Origin: Nitratifractor sp.
Lineage (GTDB): Bacteria > Campylobacterota > Campylobacteria > Campylobacterales > Sulfurovaceae
Assembly (NCBI GenBank): GCA_015491955.1
Contig: WGFZ01000065.1
Coordinates: forward strand, 1 to 34,307
DNA: 34,307 bases
Direction: 5' to 3'
Under the pieces are notes generated by a model. It saw only the letters and a list, made by a program, of their open reading frames with translations. It was not told the DNA's origin and ran no database searches. The translations under genes and the position numbers were made by a program. Positions 22,435 through 34,307 of this stretch are shown one piece after another. The stretch's first letter is position 1, and each line of letters begins with the position of its first letter.

Positions 22435-23157
22435 TTAGATAATAGTAAACGGATTTTTCGATGGCGTGATTATAACCGAAATTGGCAAAGTTTTCAATAA
22501 TTTATATAATAACTTAGCAAAAAAGTGTTCACTCTCCCAATGACCAATATCAACCATCATCAACCCTTGACTCATCGCCTTCATAGCTTCGTGATATTTA
22601 ATATCTCCTGTTAAAAAGCAATCTGCCTCTACACTATCTATCAAAGATGCTCCAGAGCCTGTACATAGAGCAATAGATCCTATATTATCTTTTGGTGAGA
22701 CTATACGTAGGCTATTTAAGCCAAAAGCCTTTTTTATTTTTTCTTGAAGTTCCATAAGAGTCCAATTAACCTTAGCTTCACAAAGAAAGGGCTTTTCCCT
22801 CTCTATCTCTAACTCTAAAACTTCGCGAAATACATAACTATTTAGATGAGTCTTATCAAAATTTGTATGCATTGCTATTAGAGATTGTCCCTTTTGAATA
22901 AGTTTTTCTATGAGATTAGCAGGATATAGCTCAAAATTTAATGATGTAAGTTTTCCAAAAATTAGTGGGTGGTGTACTATAAAAAGAGTTCCCTCTTTTG
23001 CTCTTTCAATCATCATCTCATCAATATCCAAAGATAAAACAACCTCATCAACCTCTCGATTCATATCACCAATAATCAAACCGCTATTATCCCACTTCTC
23101 TTGTAATTCAAAGGGGCTAATAGTATTTAGATACTCATATATTTCACCTATTTTCAT
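22435..23157 (-). CDS. Nif3-like dinuclear metal-centre protein
   Basis: WDNSGLIIGD, VHHPLIFGKLTSLNF, AMHTNFDKTHLNSYV, TGDIKYHEAM, DIGHWESEHF. Confidence 0.92.
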   Translation of the reverse strand: MKIGEIYEYLNTISPFELQEKWDNSGLIIGDMNREVDEVVLSLDIDEMMIERAKEGTLFIVHHPLIFGKLTSLNFELYPANLIEKLIQKGQSLIAMHTNFDKTHLNSYVFREVLELEIEREKPFLCEAKVNWTLMELQEKIKKAFGLNSLRIVSPKDNIGSIALCTGSGASLIDSVEADCFLTGDIKYHEAMKAMSQGLMMVDIGHWESEHFFAKLLYKLLKTLPISVIITPSKNPFTII

Positions 23158-23849
23158 TTAAACCCTTTATTACAATTAACCATACACCTAGTACAAGTTT
23201 TTATTTTATTGTTTTCAATAACCTCTTCCAATGCACAAGTATCTAAAATCGTAATCTTATGCTCTTTATCTATTGAAATCAATCCCTCTCTTTTCATCTT
23301 ATTAAATATACGAGAGAGTGTCTCTGGAGTTAAATTTAAAATAGCAGCTATCTCATTATATTTTAGAGTAGTAAATATATCAATATTTTCTAAAAGAATC
23401 TTAGCCACTTTTGCTTCAGAAGAGAGAATAGTCTCTTTTTGAATAAGAGATGATAAAACCATTATTTTAGATGTAAGAGACTTAATAAGTTCAAGAGAGA
23501 AATCACTATTTGATAGATTTTTATATATATAATCATAAGGTATTAGTGCCATTTTCCCATCTGAAACAAATTCACAAGTGGCAGGGAAAGGCATACGCTC
23601 AAAACAGGCATACTCTCCTATAATTGAAGGTTTATCAAAACGATTTATTTGAATTTGGCTACCTTTTGGAGACGTTTTGTAAAGTTTAACACTACCTTCT
23701 ATAAGAATATATAGATACTCTCCAATATCACCCTCATAAAATACAATTCCATCTTTACTATAACTCTTAATAATAGAGTTATCTTCAATCTCACGAATAT
23801 GATTTTGAGATAGTTTTGAGAAGAGTCCTATTTGACTTAAATCAACCAT
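23154..23849 (-). CDS. Crp/Fnr-family transcriptional regulator with C-terminal cysteine cluster
   Basis: cNMP-binding-like N-terminal domain (FYEGDIGEYLYILIEGSVKLYK) and HTH (EIAAILNLTPETLSRIFNKMKREGLI); C terminus DTCALEEVIENNKIKTCTRCMVNCNKGFK. Confidence 0.9.
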   Translation of the reverse strand: MVDLSQIGLFSKLSQNHIREIEDNSIIKSYSKDGIVFYEGDIGEYLYILIEGSVKLYKTSPKGSQIQINRFDKPSIIGEYACFERMPFPATCEFVSDGKMALIPYDYIYKNLSNSDFSLELIKSLTSKIMVLSSLIQKETILSSEAKVAKILLENIDIFTTLKYNEIAAILNLTPETLSRIFNKMKREGLISIDKEHKITILDTCALEEVIENNKIKTCTRCMVNCNKGFK

Positions 23850-23891: not shown

Positions 23892-24641
23892 CTATTTTTC
23901 AAACCAACTCAAATCTTTATGTAGTTTAACAACTTTACCTACAACAATAAGTGCTGGTGTTGGTAAATCCTTTGCTTTTTCATAAATATTGCTAAGTGTA
24001 CCTATAACTGTCTTCTCCTCTGCCCAAGTTCCTTTACTAATTACAGCTATTGGAAAATCTTTTGGCTTCCCAATTTCTAATAATTTCTCTGTAATATGTT
24101 TAAGGCGATGTAAGCCCATTAAAAAGATAATCGTATCATCACTTTTATAATTTTCCCAAGGAATTTGGCTCTTATTTTTACTAGCTTCATGACCTGTAAC
24201 AACTCTAAAGCTTACTGTAATTCCTCTATGAGTTACAGGAATACCCGCATACTCTGGAACTGCAATAGCTGATGTAATTCCTGGAATAAATTCAAATTTT
24301 ACTCCTCTTTGCTTTAGGTATATACCCTCTTCTCCCCCACGTCCAAAAACTAAAGGATCGCCACCTTTTAGGCGAACAACAATATCATATTTTAAAGAGG
24401 CTTGATAGATAAGCTCATTGATCTCATCTTGTGGAAGTGTATGGTGGCTATCAGCCTTACCAACATATATAAACTCACACCCATCTTTTGCCTCTGATAG
24501 AATCTCTGGATTAGCAAGACGGTCATATATGATAACATCAGCCTTACGAATTACTCTAAGAGCCTTTATTGTTAAAAGTTCTAAAGCTCCAGGACCTGCA
24601 CCTGTTAAATATACTCTACCCATTAGCTCTCTCTTTATCAT
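23892..24641 (-). CDS. cobA: uroporphyrinogen-III C-methyltransferase (SUMT; NirE role likely)
   Basis: VYLTGAGPGALELLTIKALRVIRKADVIIYDRL, VRLKGGDPLVFGRGGEE, VPGITSAIAVPEYAGIPVTHR-type motifs; located beside nirJ/nirF. Confidence 0.93.
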   Translation of the reverse strand: MIKRELMGRVYLTGAGPGALELLTIKALRVIRKADVIIYDRLANPEILSEAKDGCEFIYVGKADSHHTLPQDEINELIYQASLKYDIVVRLKGGDPLVFGRGGEEGIYLKQRGVKFEFIPGITSAIAVPEYAGIPVTHRGITVSFRVVTGHEASKNKSQIPWENYKSDDTIIFLMGLHRLKHITEKLLEIGKPKDFPIAVISKGTWAEEKTVIGTLSNIYEKAKDLPTPALIVVGKVVKLHKDLSWFEK

Positions 24642-25740
24642 TTAAATAACAAGATGGGTCTTCTTCCCAAAGTTCTCCTGATATAGCATAGGCTCTACTT
24701 CTACTACCACCATTACAGATATTCACTACTCCACAATTAGCACAATTACCAGATAATTTTCGTGGGTGTTCTCTTAAACGTCTTAAAATATCATTATCTT
24801 CATCTAGCCAAATTTCACTAAAGGGCTTTTGAGTCATATTTCCAATGGTAAAATGGAAAAATGGATCTGGTTTAACATTACCCTTCCAATCGATATTAAC
24901 AAGCCTCCGCCCTGCACTATTACCTCCCCATTTAAGCAGACGCCTACGCATCTCATCTTTTAAACTTGGATAACGATTAGAGAACTCTTCTAAAAATAAA
25001 ATAGAATCCATCTCCATATTTCCAGTAACAATATCAATACCTCTTCCTTGCTCATAATATTCAAATGCTTTATCTATAATAAATTTTACATAAGTGCGAC
25101 GCTCATCTTTAGAGATGTCAATCTTTAGATTATCTAAGCCTCTACCACTATATACAAGATGAGAGATATATATCTTATCTACACCAATATCTTCAGCCAA
25201 TTTAAAAATATCATAAAAGCTAGATTGTGTCTCTTTAGTTAGGGTGAAACGGATACCTGCATTACCTTGATGTTTTTGAATTAGTGCAATAGCTTCAAGA
25301 CTTCTTTTATATGCTCCTTTAAGCCCTCTAAACTCATCGTGAATAGTCTCTATCCCATCTATACTAATTCCAATATAGTTAAAAGTTTCAATAATCTCAT
25401 CTACATTTTTATCATTTATATATAATCCATTTGTAGATAGATATGTAATAATCCCAACCTTACGCATAGCTTGAGCAATTTGAAAAATATCTTTACGAAT
25501 TAGTGGTTCTCCACCACTAAATATTACAAAACGAACCCCACCTTTTAAAAGTTCAGGAATAGATTCTAAAATAAATTCAGTACTCAAAAAATCCTCAGAG
25601 TTAGCATCAGCATAACTATAACAGTGTTTACAAGCAAGATTACATCTATTTGTAAAATTCCAAATAGCAATAACGCCATCTAAAGAACGCTCCCTTTTAC
25701 CCTCAACTACTGAAGATATTAAATTTGATAAGCGAAACAC
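24616..25740 (-). CDS. nirJ: heme d1 biosynthesis radical SAM protein NirJ
   Basis: NRCNLACKHCYSYADA (CxxxCxxC), FSGGEPLIRKD, SPASM-like C terminus CANCGVVNICNGGSRSRAYA; adjacent to nirF and cobA. Confidence 0.88.
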   Translation of the reverse strand: MFRLSNLISSVVEGKRERSLDGVIAIWNFTNRCNLACKHCYSYADANSEDFLSTEFILESIPELLKGGVRFVIFSGGEPLIRKDIFQIAQAMRKVGIITYLSTNGLYINDKNVDEIIETFNYIGISIDGIETIHDEFRGLKGAYKRSLEAIALIQKHQGNAGIRFTLTKETQSSFYDIFKLAEDIGVDKIYISHLVYSGRGLDNLKIDISKDERRTYVKFIIDKAFEYYEQGRGIDIVTGNMEMDSILFLEEFSNRYPSLKDEMRRRLLKWGGNSAGRRLVNIDWKGNVKPDPFFHFTIGNMTQKPFSEIWLDEDNDILRRLREHPRKLSGNCANCGVVNICNGGSRSRAYAISGELWEEDPSCYLNDKERANG

Positions 25741-26880
25741 TTAATGACTCACTTTTGATGATTTTTTTAGATAGTCATCTGGTGCTTCAAAAAGAAAGAT
25801 TCCAGAGGGTTTACGTACTGGCCACATAAAGTGCTTCCACCACTTTTTGGGGTCTGGGTCAGATACTCTATAGGCTAACACTTCATTTTTAGTATTTACA
25901 CTAAAATAGATATGTGGAGTATCTTTTGACCAACGAAGATGTAAAATCCAACCATCAAACTTAAAGGTACGCATAATTTTAAATGTTTTTGTATCTATAA
26001 TCTGTACATAGGGAAAATCCTTACCACTAAAACTAACAGCTAACCACTTTTGATTTGGACTCATAGCAGTAAATACAGGATTTCCTTTAACCTCAATAGC
26101 GCTTATTGGCTTAAAGTTATGGTCAAAGACAAAGACCTTTTTAGCTCCAACAGCTGGAATAAAGAAGTAATCCTTTGAGATACTCCAAAAACCAAAGTGA
26201 GGAACTTTTAAGATTCTATCTTTCCTACCAAGATTTAGAGGAATCTTTTTATACTTCATAGTATCAAGGTTTAATAGACCAACATCAGGAGAGTTAAATA
26301 GCCCTGCTACATATAGATTTTTATGAATCATAGCATCAAAAGGGACTTTTCCAATATCTTTAAACTTCTTAAATAGAACAAAGTGAGCTTTAGCTTTACT
26401 AAGATTTTCATTCTTCATCACCCAAATCTCATCACTATCCATCAATTCAAAGATTAAATAGTTTTTATAAATCTTAATTCCAACATTTCTACTACCTGTT
26501 TTGATAGTTTGTAATGGATTTAAATCTCTATCTAAAATTTCAACTGTCTTATTATCATAGTTGGCTACTGCTAAAAAATTACTCCCTATAATAAATCCAA
26601 TTGCACTTTTAGATGTTTTATACTCTTTTAGCTTTTTGTTATGAATGGGGTCAAATTTGATAACATATCCATCTCTAGTAATGACATATCCATCATTATC
26701 ACGAAACTTAACAACAGCATGATTAAAATTGTGCATATTTTTAATCTTATCTACTAAGAGATTATGGTCAATTACTGCTAAAGCAGAGTTTTCACGCTCA
26801 ACAACAAAAATCTTCTCTCTTGCACTTAAAGAGCTAATAGTAGCTCCTAGTATAAATAGTAAAAAGAGCATCTTTTTCAT
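25741..26880 (-). CDS. nirF: cytochrome d1-like beta-propeller protein, NirF-like
   Basis: Signal peptide plus repeated blades (VVERENSALAVIDHN, FLAVANYDNKTVEILDRD, PVFTAMSPNQKWLAVSF); lacks a CxxCH heme-c motif; position in the heme-d1 cluster. Confidence 0.85.
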   Translation of the reverse strand: MKKMLFLLFILGATISSLSAREKIFVVERENSALAVIDHNLLVDKIKNMHNFNHAVVKFRDNDGYVITRDGYVIKFDPIHNKKLKEYKTSKSAIGFIIGSNFLAVANYDNKTVEILDRDLNPLQTIKTGSRNVGIKIYKNYLIFELMDSDEIWVMKNENLSKAKAHFVLFKKFKDIGKVPFDAMIHKNLYVAGLFNSPDVGLLNLDTMKYKKIPLNLGRKDRILKVPHFGFWSISKDYFFIPAVGAKKVFVFDHNFKPISAIEVKGNPVFTAMSPNQKWLAVSFSGKDFPYVQIIDTKTFKIMRTFKFDGWILHLRWSKDTPHIYFSVNTKNEVLAYRVSDPDPKKWWKHFMWPVRKPSGIFLFEAPDDYLKKSSKVSH

Positions 26881-27212
26881 TTCTTATCCTTAAATGAGAT
26901 TATAAAATCTGTTAATATCTTAATTTGACTAGCATTTAAATCATTAAAAGCTGGCATAGAGTTACGTTTGTAACCAAGTGTTTTATAGACAGCTTGAGGA
27001 TTAACAATTTGAGCCATTATCTGCTGTGGTGTACGCCTATTTGCAATTGAACGAAAAGAGGGACCAAATGCTTCAGCACTTTGATGATGACAACCCCAAC
27101 AGTAACTTTTAAATAGTTTCAATCCAGCCTTTTGCTCAATATCTAAATCACTAGCTAATATTACATAAGGTAATAGCAATATAACGATAACTCTAATAAT
27201 ATTAAAACTCAA
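26877..27212 (-). CDS. small periplasmic monoheme cytochrome c (NirC/NirM-like)
   Basis: Signal peptide, KSYCWGCHHQSAEAFGPSF (CxxCH), NSMPAFNDL (axial Met). TTG start with AAGGGG upstream. Confidence 0.85.
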   Translation of the reverse strand: MSFNIIRVIVILLLPYVILASDLDIEQKAGLKLFKSYCWGCHHQSAEAFGPSFRSIANRRTPQQIMAQIVNPQAVYKTLGYKRNSMPAFNDLNASQIKILTDFIISFKDKK

Positions 27213-30140: not shown

Positions 30141-30212
30141 ACAAGAGTAAAATTATCAGGTATAATACATTTATCCTATTTTATAGGTAAAAAATCTTAG
30201 AAAGGGTTGTCT

Positions 30213-30452
30213 ATGTTTAATATAAAAGTTGAAAAAGAGTGTGGTTGCTTTAAAAAGAGTTCAATACAAAATAATCAAAGAGTTGATAATAAAGATGATG
30301 CTTTATTCAAAGCTCAAAATATGGCTAAAGAGATGAATGAGACTTTCTGCCAAAAACATAACTTTAAAGTAGTTGAAAGTGATAATGACTTTATAATAAA
30401 AGTTGAGGAAAATAAAGCATCTACTTGTTGTGGAGGTGGACACTGCCACTAA
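30213..30452 (+). CDS. small Cys/His-rich protein, possible metal binding
   Basis: MFNIKVEKECGCFKKS...ENKASTCCGGGHCH*. ATG 30213 preferred over the track TTG 30207; AAAGGG upstream and TATAAT at 30161-30166. Confidence 0.75.
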   Translation: MFNIKVEKECGCFKKSSIQNNQRVDNKDDALFKAQNMAKEMNETFCQKHNFKVVESDNDFIIKVEENKASTCCGGGHCH

Positions 30453-30826: not shown

Positions 30827-31015
30827 CTATCCAAACTCTAAATATCCTGCAACAATTAAAGAAAATAATATAGTAAAACCAATAACCATAACTTTATACC
30901 ACTTATCACCAATACAATAACGCTCTTGTAACCAATCACTAATCCTCATAGCAGGATAGGCAAAAAATAGAAGCAAAACAGACGTATATACAAGTGTCAA
31001 AACAATATTAATCAT
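30827..31015 (-). CDS. hypothetical small membrane protein (62 aa)
   Basis: MINIVLTLVYTSVLLLFFAYPAMRISDWLQERYCIGDKWYKVMVIGFTILFSLIVAGYLEFG; two TM segments; overlaps the upstream ORF by 4 nt. Confidence 0.7.
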   Translation of the reverse strand: MINIVLTLVYTSVLLLFFAYPAMRISDWLQERYCIGDKWYKVMVIGFTILFSLIVAGYLEFG

Positions 31016-31398
31016 TTATCTTTCACCTGATAGTAATTTTCAATAAAATGTTTCTCTTTCTCACTTTTTAGTGGTATTTTCTTTAACTCTTTAGAACTAC
31101 TATCTAAGATAATCAAAGTTTCACCTTTAAGTTTTAAATGTTTACTCGCCCATTCACGCTCTAACTCTTGAAGCCTAGAATAAAAATGTATAGCATCTGG
31201 CTCCTCTTTAAATTTAGGATTATCCTTACGAAGAATTTTAAGACCACCAAGAGTTTTTTCAATTACAAATGGAGTATATTGCCGTATTATAGGATAAAGA
31301 CGTGCATCACGGTGGGCTGGTCTTCCCAAAATAAAGGCTACAGCTACTAAAAAAAGGACAACCGCCCCCAATCCAAATCCAACTCTTTTACTTAACAT
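31012..31398 (-). CDS. hypothetical membrane-anchored protein
   Basis: One N-terminal TM then a charged domain. ATG at 31398 with AAGGA spaced 7-8 nt upstream; track TTG is at 31401. Confidence 0.7.
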   Translation of the reverse strand: MLSKRVGFGLGAVVLFLVAVAFILGRPAHRDARLYPIIRQYTPFVIEKTLGGLKILRKDNPKFKEEPDAIHFYSRLQELEREWASKHLKLKGETLIILDSSSKELKKIPLKSEKEKHFIENYYQVKDK

Positions 31399-31455
31399 CA
31401 AAAAATCCTTTTAATAAATCAAAACTAAGTATAGAGTCTCATATATTATAAATAG

Positions 31456-31469
31456 TTGATAAATATCAA
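31456..31469. promoter_or_regulatory. perfect FNR-type palindrome TTGAT-AAAT-ATCAA, possibly bidirectional
   Basis: Direct read of TTGATAAATATCAA. Minus-strand TATACT at 31428-31433 and plus-strand TACACT at 31493-31498 lie 22 and 23 nt from the box edges. Confidence 0.75.
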
Positions 31470-31527
31470 GCCAATAACTGCTCCCCTTGCGATACACTAA
31501 CATTTTAATATAAATAAGGAGTAGAGT

Positions 31528-31902
31528 ATGTTAAGAGATTTTTTCTATTTAGAGGGAGCATATTTAATCTTAGCGGTTATTATTATACTAATTACAATTT
31601 TTGTAACTACCCGCCCTTTTATGTCTCCATCTGCTCCTAAAAAAGGATTAGTGGCTGTTAGCTTAATTCTTAGTTTTTTTATAGGTATCCATTTTTGGAT
31701 TACAACCTCACGTATAGCCTATGTAAAAAAAGCATTTTATGAGAATAAACCTATTCTTTGTGAAAGTAGAATGTTACGTAAAATGGCTCAATCTATTGAG
31801 ATTCGTAAATCAACATTATCTAATTGGCAAATAAAAGGTGATAATTTTGTATCTCCTGAGTATAATCGACCTTTTCACCTTGCTCGTTGTATTGTTAAAT
31901 AG
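31528..31902 (+). CDS. hypothetical membrane protein (124 aa) in the nor region
   Basis: MLRDFFYLEGAYLILAVIIILITIFVTTRP...; AAGGAG upstream; 2 or more TM segments and two cysteines in the C-terminal half. Confidence 0.75.
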   Translation: MLRDFFYLEGAYLILAVIIILITIFVTTRPFMSPSAPKKGLVAVSLILSFFIGIHFWITTSRIAYVKKAFYENKPILCESRMLRKMAQSIEIRKSTLSNWQIKGDNFVSPEYNRPFHLARCIVK

Positions 31903-31936: not shown

Positions 31937-31978
31937 TTGATTACTATCAACTCTATTTGACGAAAAAATTCTTATAAT
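31937..31978 (+). promoter_or_regulatory. FNR-type palindrome TTGAT-TACT-ATCAA and -10 TATAAT of the nor operon
   Basis: Palindrome at 31937-31950, then 22 nt, then TATAAT (31973-31978); box centre about 41.5 nt from the expected start site. Confidence 0.8.
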
Positions 31979-32021: not shown

Positions 32022-32366
32022 ATGGGAAATTTTATTGGGTGGCCAGAGATTGCACCAGAGCAGTTTTTACCTATTTTCATTATTTCAACACTAGTTTTAA
32101 TATTTGGAGTAGGATATGCCTCAATCATTACACTGGCAAAAATGGGATTTTTCTCAAAAAGATGGATGACTCTTGGCTACTTGTTTTGGGGCTTACAAAC
32201 ACTTAGTCTATATAAGCTTGCCATACTTATACATAGTAATCACTATACAACAAAAGTATTACTAGTAACTATGATAGCTTATCTCTTCGTACCTCATCTG
32301 TACTTCTACCTAATATCAGAGTCAGATAAGCGTTACGAACAAGACAATGATAATCAAACAAAATAA
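32022..32366 (+). CDS. hypothetical multi-pass membrane protein upstream of norC
   Basis: MGNFIGWPEIAPEQFLPIFIISTLVLIFGVGYASIITLAKMGFFS...; about three TM segments; AAAAGGAG upstream; precedes norC closely. Confidence 0.75.
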   Translation: MGNFIGWPEIAPEQFLPIFIISTLVLIFGVGYASIITLAKMGFFSKRWMTLGYLFWGLQTLSLYKLAILIHSNHYTTKVLLVTMIAYLFVPHLYFYLISESDKRYEQDNDNQTK

Positions 32367-32376
32367 AGGAGGAAGA

Positions 32377-33045
32377 ATGGCTAAAAAACAAGCATCAGTT
32401 TGGACAAGTATTAGCTTTTGGCGTCGTTCTGCAGCTTGGGTAACAGGCTTTGCGACAATTTTGTTAATCTGGCTAACATTTGATACTATAGGTCAGATTC
32501 GTATGGGTACTAACGATGAGTTGGTAAAGGGGATAAAAAGGAGAGTTCCTGCTCCAACTGTAGTTAATTATAAAATTGGCTACAAATATGATGCAAAACG
32601 TGGTTTAGAAGCTCCTGTAATAGGACCTCAAAAACAGCCACTATTTGGTAAAGAGTTGAGTCCAAAAGAGGCAAGTGAGATGCTTCATCTAGGAAAACTT
32701 ACATCTCAAGCTAAGAACTGTATGGATTGCCATACACTACTTGGAAATGGTGGCTATTATGCACCAGATTTAACAAAAGCTTGGCTAGACCCAATGTGGG
32801 AAAAGACTATGCCTGCTATTACAAATACAAAGACAAAAGAGGATGCTATGGTGGCATTTTTAATGCACCCTGAACTATTTGCTACACATGCTAGACGTAT
32901 GCCAAATTTGGGAATAACCAAAAAAGAGGCAAAGGCTCTTGTTGTATTCTTGAAACATATGTCCTCTATTGATACAAATGGATATCCTAGAGGATTCTCT
33001 AAAACAGTAGAACAATACAAAGCAGGAGGGACCTATGCTAAGTAA
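32377..33045 (+). CDS. norC: nitric oxide reductase subunit C
   Basis: N-terminal TM anchor, NCMDCHTLLGNGGYYAPDLTKAW (CxxCH), ARRMPNLGITKKEAKALVVFLKHM. ATG 32377 has AAAGGAGGA upstream. Confidence 0.94.
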   Translation: MAKKQASVWTSISFWRRSAAWVTGFATILLIWLTFDTIGQIRMGTNDELVKGIKRRVPAPTVVNYKIGYKYDAKRGLEAPVIGPQKQPLFGKELSPKEASEMLHLGKLTSQAKNCMDCHTLLGNGGYYAPDLTKAWLDPMWEKTMPAITNTKTKEDAMVAFLMHPELFATHARRMPNLGITKKEAKALVVFLKHMSSIDTNGYPRGFSKTVEQYKAGGTYAK

Positions 33046-34307
33046 AACTGCACACTTATCACCTTCTAAACAGTTGGCGATGAACTACTTTAGAGTGGCA
33101 ATTGTACTATTTGGTGCACAATTACTAATGGGATTAATTGCTGGATACCAATTCTTAAATCCTAGCTTTTTATATGGTATTTTTGATTTTAGTGTAGCCC
33201 GTATGATACATATCAATGCACTTGTTGTCTGGATGCTCTATGCAATGATAGGCTCAGTCTATCTAATGTTACCAGATGAGACTGGTATTGAAAATCCTGT
33301 ATATATAGGACTGGGTAAACTAGCATTTTGGATATTAACTATTGCTGTTGCTATTGTTGTATTAGTCTTTATCTTTGTTCAAGTTGGACCTGGTAAAGAG
33401 AGTACTATTTGGTTTATTAATGAGGGTCGTGAGTATCTTGAGGCACCACGTTGGGCTGATATTGGTATTGTTGTAGTTGTTTTAATCTTCTATGCTAATG
33501 TATTCTTTACCTATCTCAAAGGTAAGAGAACTGGAATTATGACTGTTATGGTTGCCAACTTGATGGCTGTAGCTGGTCTATATCTTGCTGGAATGTTCTT
33601 TACTGATAATATATCTATGGATCAATACTGGTGGTGGTGGGTTATTCACCTTTGGGTAGAAGCTACTTGGGAAGTATTTGTTGGAACACTAGCTGCTTAT
33701 GCCTTGATTAAAGTAATCGATGCTAAACGTGAAATTGTTGAGATGTGGCTATGGATTGAAGTATTGATGCTATTTGGTTCTGGAATTTTAGGACTTGGGC
33801 ATCACTACTTTTGGATTGGAACTCCTGAATATTGGTGGGAAATTGGAGCCCTATTTAGTTCTCTTGAACCTGTTCCTTTAGTTGCAATGTTTGTTCACGT
33901 ACTCTATGATTGGGGTAAAGAGCAAGGTCAATGTGAAGCACATGGTGAAAAGAGTACTATAAAAAATGGTCCTGTAATGGCTTGGCTTGTTACAAATGCC
34001 TTTGGAAACTTCCTAGGTGCTGGTATTTGGGGATTTTTCCATACACTTCCTCAAGTAAATATCTATACACACGGCTCACAATTTACAGCAGCTCACGGAC
34101 ACTTAGCATTCTTTGGTGCCTATGCAACAATCTTGATTGGTATGATGTATCTTGGTATCCAAGAGAACTATGGAATCAAAAGAATGAAGATGACTTTCAA
34201 CTCTAAAATGGCAATAAGTTTAATTACATTTGGAGTTTTAGGAATGACTGTAGCCTTGACAATTGCTGGATATGAGCAAGTACTTATAGAACGTGCTGAA
34301 CTTGGTG
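33035..34307 (+). CDS. norB: nitric oxide reductase subunit B, truncated by window end
   Basis: Continuous frame from ATG 33035: MLSKTAHLSPSKQLAMNYFRVAIVLFGAQLLMG...VIHLWVEATWEVFVGTL...GLGHHYFWIGTPEYWWEIGALFSSLEPVPL...AAHGHLAFFGAYA. Not in the ORF track because it is open at the edge. Confidence 0.96.
   Translation, partial: MLSKTAHLSPSKQLAMNYFRVAIVLFGAQLLMGLIAGYQFLNPSFLYGIFDFSVARMIHINALVVWMLYAMIGSVYLMLPDETGIENPVYIGLGKLAFWILTIAVAIVVLVFIFVQVGPGKESTIWFINEGREYLEAPRWADIGIVVVVLIFYANVFFTYLKGKRTGIMTVMVANLMAVAGLYLAGMFFTDNISMDQYWWWWVIHLWVEATWEVFVGTLAAYALIKVIDAKREIVEMWLWIEVLMLFGSGILGLGHHYFWIGTPEYWWEIGALFSSLEPVPLVAMFVHVLYDWGKEQGQCEAHGEKSTIKNGPVMAWLVTNAFGNFLGAGIWGFFHTLPQVNIYTHGSQFTAAHGHLAFFGAYATILIGMMYLGIQENYGIKRMKMTFNSKMAISLITFGVLGMTVALTIAGYEQVLIERAELG

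Follow-up and report, generated by a model that had tools for sequence, protein, structure and literature searches.

A Crp/Fnr-family regulator with a conserved C-terminal CxxC pair, the probable master switch of denitrification in Sulfurovum and Nitratifractor relatives

INTRODUCTION

How do the relatives of Sulfurovum and Nitratifractor, denitrifiers of vents and sulfidic sediments, switch denitrification on? Our search of the literature found no paper that addresses this. The question is raised by a stretch of 34,307 nucleotides (referred to as the window here), which carries a gene for a Crp/Fnr-family regulator together with putative heme d1 and nor genes. A preliminary description had proposed that this protein carries a four-cysteine motif at its C terminus in place of the N-terminal cluster of FNR, as a relocated redox site, and that it acts on norCB. 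Regulators of this kind are known from Campylobacterota, where the Nss proteins take nitrate, NO, and N2O as signals and have sites of the form TTGA-N6-TCAA (PMC6682613, PMC11539149).

RESULTS

A regulator of the Crp/Fnr superfamily is encoded next to putative heme d1 genes.

The regulator gene is located on a contig of a Sulfurovaceae (Nitratifractor-like) metagenome-assembled genome (MAG) of 1.11 Mb that is 73% complete, from a family that includes both Sulfurovum and Nitratifractor; among the closest relatives are Nitratifractor sp. and Campylobacteraceae MAGs. It is the only Crp/Fnr protein that we detected in this incomplete genome. Both superfamily domains (PF00027 and PF13545) score over the cut-off, with the cNMP-binding-like domain preceding the Crp-type winged helix-turn-helix (HTH) at residues 160 to 209. 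The open reading frame with its coordinates, its domains, and the missing N-terminal cluster had all been described exactly (Table 1). The six cysteines are at positions 82, 92, 205, 219, 222, and 226, leaving none before residue 82, and the NCBIfam FNR model scores it at 30 bits, below the cut-off of 228, which separates the protein from classical FNR of the E. coli type. The E. coli protein shares with it the E-x2-SR recognition helix, the TTGAT-N4-ATCAA box, and the class II geometry known for FNR, but holds its [4Fe-4S] cluster on N-terminal cysteines and C122, both absent from the regulator. The best PDB sequence matches include DNR of Pseudomonas aeruginosa (3dkw, 5.5e-11), which is also among the best by fold and is likewise a denitrification activator lacking the FNR cysteine cluster; DNR is described as a heme-dependent NO sensor.

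Table 1. Features of the window discussed in the text (- and +, strand)
Feature	Position	Strand	Evidence or remark
Crp/Fnr-family regulator, 231 aa	23154..23849	-	Pfam cNMP_binding 4.1e-17, HTH_Crp_2 6.9e-13
C-terminal tail, residues 214-231	23157..23210	-	Conserved C219 (23193-23195) and C222 (23184-23186)
C226, private to window protein	23172..23174	-	F in 84/93 tail-bearing homologues
C205, private to window protein	23235..23237	-	E/D in 84/93 tail-bearing homologues
Recognition helix TPETLSRIF, residues 174-182	23304..23330	-	E176, T177, S179, and R180 invariant in 93/93
Effector (cNMP-binding-like) domain, residues 28-110	23520..23768	-	Profile match
C92, effector domain	23574..23576	-	Invariant in 93/93 tail-bearing homologues; Ala in Sulfurimonas-type outgroup; retained in tail-less sister clade
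cobA/nirE, uroporphyrinogen-III C-methyltransferase, directly upstream of regulator	23892..24641	-	TIGR01469 1e-87, over cut-off
nirJ-like heme d1 radical SAM protein	24616..25740	-	TIGR04051 1.1e-117, under equivalog cut-off; syntenic in 62/97 loci
Cytochrome D1-type propeller (NirF/NirN-like)	25741..26880	-	PF02239 2.6e-26
Small cytochrome c (NirC-like)	26877..27212	-	PF13442 8.4e-08; syntenic in 56/97 loci
FNR-type box TTGATAAATATCAA	31456..31469	.	Between divergent genes 31012-31401 (-) and 31528-31902 (+)
FNR-type box TTGATTACTATCAA	31937..31950	.	Perfect -10 TATAAT at 31973-31978 (+), spacer 22, toward 32022 gene
nor-operon membrane protein, 114 aa	32022..32366	+	No family match; adjoins norC in relatives
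NorC-like membrane cytochrome c	32347..33045	+	PF00034 1.1e-06, NorB_cytochrome_c-like 3e-4
NorB-like heme-copper oxidase subunit I, cut by window end	33035..34307	+	PF00115 1.3e-56

The genes upstream of the regulator are, judging from their families, those of heme d1 biosynthesis for a cytochrome cd1 nitrite reductase. Most relatives share the order cytochrome c, (propeller), nirJ, cobA, regulator or one much like it. Of 97 loci, a set with many short contigs and paralogues, 65 have cobA upstream of the regulator in the same orientation. No box was found in front of the nir operon in the window; in two relatives (G084 and G061), a box lies upstream of nirC.

Two further features adjoin or overlap the ends of the regulator gene. 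Its stop codon shares an ATGA (23154-23157) with the start of a NIF3-family gene, which suggests translational coupling of the two in this genome. A one-mismatch box, which also fits TTGA-N6-TCAA, lies within codons 2 to 6 (23832-23845) and is probably there by chance, given that relatives start with MYDLRE-type sequences at this place and not with MVDLSQ.

Boxes with class II geometry precede denitrification genes across the Sulfurovaceae.

The two perfect TTGAT-N4-ATCAA boxes reported at 31456 and 31937 are present, compared with 0.12 expected in the window from dinucleotide shuffles, and lie 55 to 71 bp away from start codons of the nor region. The first box has -10-like hexamers on both sides, TATACT at 31433-31428 (-) with a spacer of 22 toward the gene at 31012-31401 and TACACT at 31493-31498 (+) with a spacer of 23 toward the gene at 31528-31902. 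Also in this part of the window, an 81-amino-acid protein (30207-30452) with an early CGC and the ending STCCGGGHCH matches no Pfam or NCBIfam model and is possibly a small metal-binding protein.

The source MAG contains 12 perfect boxes, about half of them in coding sequence; such matches inside genes were taken as background. Its intergenic boxes lie at nor (two), at nap/nirDH, and ahead of genes for a 113-amino-acid protein and a superoxide-reductase-like protein. Four other genomes of the family (G042, G033, G003, and G084) also have a perfect box in the divergent nor promoter, with a second nor box in G003. Elsewhere, intergenic boxes precede napA, nirDH-like (AsnC/Lrp-type) and cysG-like genes, nosZ, and nirC-like cytochromes, as well as the conserved 113-amino-acid gene, ribonucleotide reductase, superoxide-reductase-like, and thiol peroxidase genes, these names being read from the sequences and not from model scans.

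Counting -10-like hexamers at each distance in the 51 promoter orientations that adjoin intergenic boxes, we found one exactly 22 bp past the box in 32, while other distances have 2.9 on average and 8 at most. The 51 promoters include orthologues and thus are not independent; the peak at 22 is nonetheless single and sharp. This spacing places the box center at about -41.5, the position of a class II activator. A control with the reversed pattern gave an apparent 10- to 20-fold enrichment of boxes, which was inflated by the CTA/TAG in the reversed pattern and by the intragenic location of roughly every second perfect match; it was dropped in favor of the shuffles and the -10 spacing. The proposed action on nor is supported by the position and class II geometry of the boxes, the nor boxes of four other Sulfurovaceae genomes, and the wider predicted denitrification regulon.

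The 113-amino-acid protein, which contains the motif KCGPPEPMVNAMAGLK and has a class II box ahead of its gene in five Sulfurovaceae genomes (L213, L220, L192, L204, and L279), had no Pfam match at 0.01 in a scan of the first 110 residues of one copy. It is reminiscent of DUF2249/TusA-like proteins and may be an uncharacterized denitrification protein.

The tailed regulator is a strong candidate for the reader of the boxes.

The recognition helix had been read correctly as TPETLSRIF, with E176, S179, and R180 forming the E-x2-SR pattern. In three relatives (G003, G084, and G061), the regulator with the C-terminal tail is the only HTH_Crp_2 protein found, in genomes with 19, 18, and 24 perfect boxes, respectively. 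Other genomes encode a second Crp/Fnr protein, whose recognition helix in those that were read is TVRHVVxRH and not E-x2-SR. Since the tailed protein is the sole candidate in three relatives and the helix of the second protein differs from that of a TTGAT reader, this elimination makes a strong case for binding of the TTGAT-N4-ATCAA boxes by the tailed regulator. The unusual helix of the second protein (IGTVRHVVxRHxK) was noted in several Sulfurovaceae (L237, L240, L245, L247, L248, and L250).

By its sequence, the regulator would work like an Nss/DNR regulator, very probably as a class II activator of denitrification; we infer both the targets to be activated (nap, nir/heme d1, nor, and nos) and the direction of regulation. 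Boxes with class II spacing are found at nap, nir, nor, and nos, and the Nss proteins (NssA/B/C of Wolinella succinogenes and NssR of Campylobacter jejuni) share with the regulator the Crp/Fnr fold, the E-x2-SR helix, boxes of the TTGA-N6-TCAA type, and the nap/nir/nor/nos target set (PMC6682613, PMC11539149). The similarity has limits, however, as sequence identity is low and the regulator is linked to heme d1 genes. In a genome that we take to be that of W. succinogenes (G311), three Crp/Fnr homologues are 36, 33, and 31% identical to the regulator and form deep branches with long-branch warnings; one adjoins napA and another nosZ. In contrast to the regulator, neither these three nor the Sulfurimonas-type homologues have a CxxC tail.

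Only two of the four C-terminal cysteines are conserved.

The C-terminal sequence and its spacing, C205-x13-C219-x2-C222-x3-C226, had been given exactly. To assess conservation, we used 135 distinct homologues from the fetched loci, 93 of which have a C-terminal CxxC tail; tailed and tail-less homologues together occur in 134 of 150 genomes of the family. C219-x2-C222 is present in 93/93 tail-bearing proteins, a count that is true partly by definition, because tail-bearing was set by a match to CxxC. However, single-cysteine tails do not occur in the clade, and the tail-less proteins group together in one clade of their own. The tailed proteins share 46 to 100% pairwise identity; of their 231 columns, 35 do not vary, C92, N214, C219, and C222 among them, while the tail positions around the last three are mostly variable.

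C205 and C226 fared differently, each being a cysteine in the window protein only, so that the conserved motif reduces to C219-x2-C222 and the four-cysteine motif does not stand as described. We rejected a general C205/C219/C222/C226 cluster on these grounds. That the four residues are a genuine private elaboration of this one protein is highly improbable: their spacing recalls the C-x2-C-x4-C of Bacillus Fnr (PMC3520743), but C205 and C226 are limited to one homologue of 93, encoded in a single MAG, and in the closest relatives (71 to 74% identity) position 226 is F and position 205 is E/D or a different residue. A four-cysteine site formed by C82, C92, C219, and C222 was likewise rejected, as C82 is replaced in 14 of the 93 proteins.

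The notion of C-terminal cysteines taking the place of N-terminal ones holds for C219 and C222 but had missed C92 of the effector domain, which is just as invariant. We considered strict covariation of C92 with the tail and did not uphold it: C92 is retained in the tail-less sister clade and in other tail-less relatives and thus is not tied to the tail.

The tail appears to have been gained once and lost once.

With the tail columns excluded, the tree supports the Sulfurovaceae clade (100/99) and places a clade of 10 tail-less paralogues among the tailed proteins (94/90). On this tree, the tail was gained once within the Sulfurovaceae and lost in one paralogue clade; when the tail columns were included, the tailed proteins fell on one side of a branch (98/96) and the tail had appeared as a single change, a reading that we abandoned. 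A class-wide search of 298 genomes, judged by alignment ranges, revealed no tailed homologue outside the family, and the Sulfurimonas-type outgroup lacks both the tail and C92, with alanine at this position.

Some relatives hold only tail-less versions, showing that the tail is not essential. G050, for instance, has among its close homologues only a tail-less version, with cysG and napA as its neighbors and boxes to either side; in that genome, the role can do without the tail. The tail so appears to modulate the regulator instead of being needed for its job, and the tail-less paralogue clade offers a natural control for its loss. In that clade (L122:5694-6344, L159:5167-5823, and eight further loci), ALF replaces GEY before C92. 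A second tail-bearing paralogue group, with a tail of the KACSDCLSKKK type, is found outside the nir cluster (L143, L144, L153, L154, L156, and L157); in L156 and L157 it adjoins genes that, named by eye, are NifU/IscU-like and phosphatidylserine decarboxylase-like.

DISCUSSION

The regulatory role of the protein is well supported, while its sensor chemistry is putative. In the model that we propose, a dimeric Crp/Fnr regulator would bind TTGAT-N4-ATCAA boxes centered near -41.5 and activate nap, heme d1/nir, nor, and nos as a class II activator. A redox-active or Fe-S site at C219-x2-C222 of the tail, perhaps completed by C92 or by a carboxylate (the invariant acidic columns are E79, E139, E145, E166, and E176, the last of these in the recognition helix), would most likely govern its activity, with O2 and/or NO switching the regulator off or on. 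We hold this model as a whole with evenly balanced confidence.

The analogy with Bacillus makes it plausible that the CxxC tail acts as a redox sensor or a sensory Fe-S site. Fnr of B. subtilis and B. cereus also lacks the N-terminal cluster; its C-terminal extension, beyond the DNA-binding domain, contains three cysteines (C-x2-C-x4-C) that hold a [4Fe-4S] cluster together with Asp141 (PMC3520743). The relocated redox site of the preliminary description thus keeps its conserved cysteines at the C terminus but is not new in kind. The Bacillus pattern itself is absent, as the regulator conserves two tail cysteines plus C92, its third tail cysteine is private to the window protein and spaced by x3, and its tail arose within the Sulfurovaceae. 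With two conserved tail cysteines instead of three, a cluster would need ligands from elsewhere. That C92, C219, and C222 stay fixed in proteins whose tails have otherwise largely diverged supports a redox or Fe-S function, as does the joint absence of C92 and the tail from the Sulfurimonas-type outgroup; against it counts that AlphaFold leaves the tail unplaced (residues 218 to 231 have a pLDDT below 50), making its position relative to C92 unusable. The model is also weakened by the retention of C92 in tail-less proteins, by the tail-less version in G050, and by the nir operon of the window, which has no box ahead of it.

The tail could instead bind zinc or be structural, e.g., by contacting the other subunit of the dimer or RNA polymerase, and have no part in sensing, with the effector domain reading nitrate, NO, or N2O, a mechanism that has been proposed for Nss/DNR proteins. 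We regard this as somewhat unlikely, though several observations point to it. The role seems to be ancestral, as do the box and the regulon, with tail-less relatives adjoining nor genes (L053 to L055) and one (L159) flanked by cysG and napA and accompanied by boxes; one loss of the tail occurred without loss of the gene; and the Nss proteins control the same genes with no described tail (PMC6682613, PMC11539149). The strict paired conservation of the two cysteines in a drifting context, on the other hand, suggests a chemical function of the pair.

Such a function might also be that of a thiol-disulfide switch, with or without C92, in which oxidation by O2, NO, or reactive sulfur species would alter DNA binding. 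The invariant cysteines, a CxxC pair and one distant residue, are enough for a disulfide and short of four cluster ligands, and FixK2 sets a precedent with a redox-sensitive cysteine in a Crp/Fnr DNA-binding domain (PMC12937710). The nearest topological precedent is, however, a [4Fe-4S] protein, and we judge a thiol switch to be unlikely. Doubtful still is the most specific form of the Fe-S reading, an O2/NO-sensing activator evolved in the Sulfurovaceae independently of Bacillus, in which a cluster would bridge C92 of the effector domain and the CxxC tail beyond the DNA-binding domain, and cluster loss would directly unlock these two domains; if true, this would be a third way to wire a cluster into the FNR fold.

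In the proposed class II activator with a redox or Fe-S site at C219-x2-C222, the CxxC tail is the lineage-specific novelty, in a layout that apparently evolved separately from that of Bacillus Fnr, and its conserved terminal pair is plausibly a redox or gas sensor. Should the tail carry a cluster, the FNR redox site would have moved to the C terminus a second time, independently. For the Sulfurovum and Nitratifractor relatives, our analysis offers a likely master regulator of denitrification, a box with class II geometry, a first predicted regulon, and two or three candidate cysteines through which the switch may be set.
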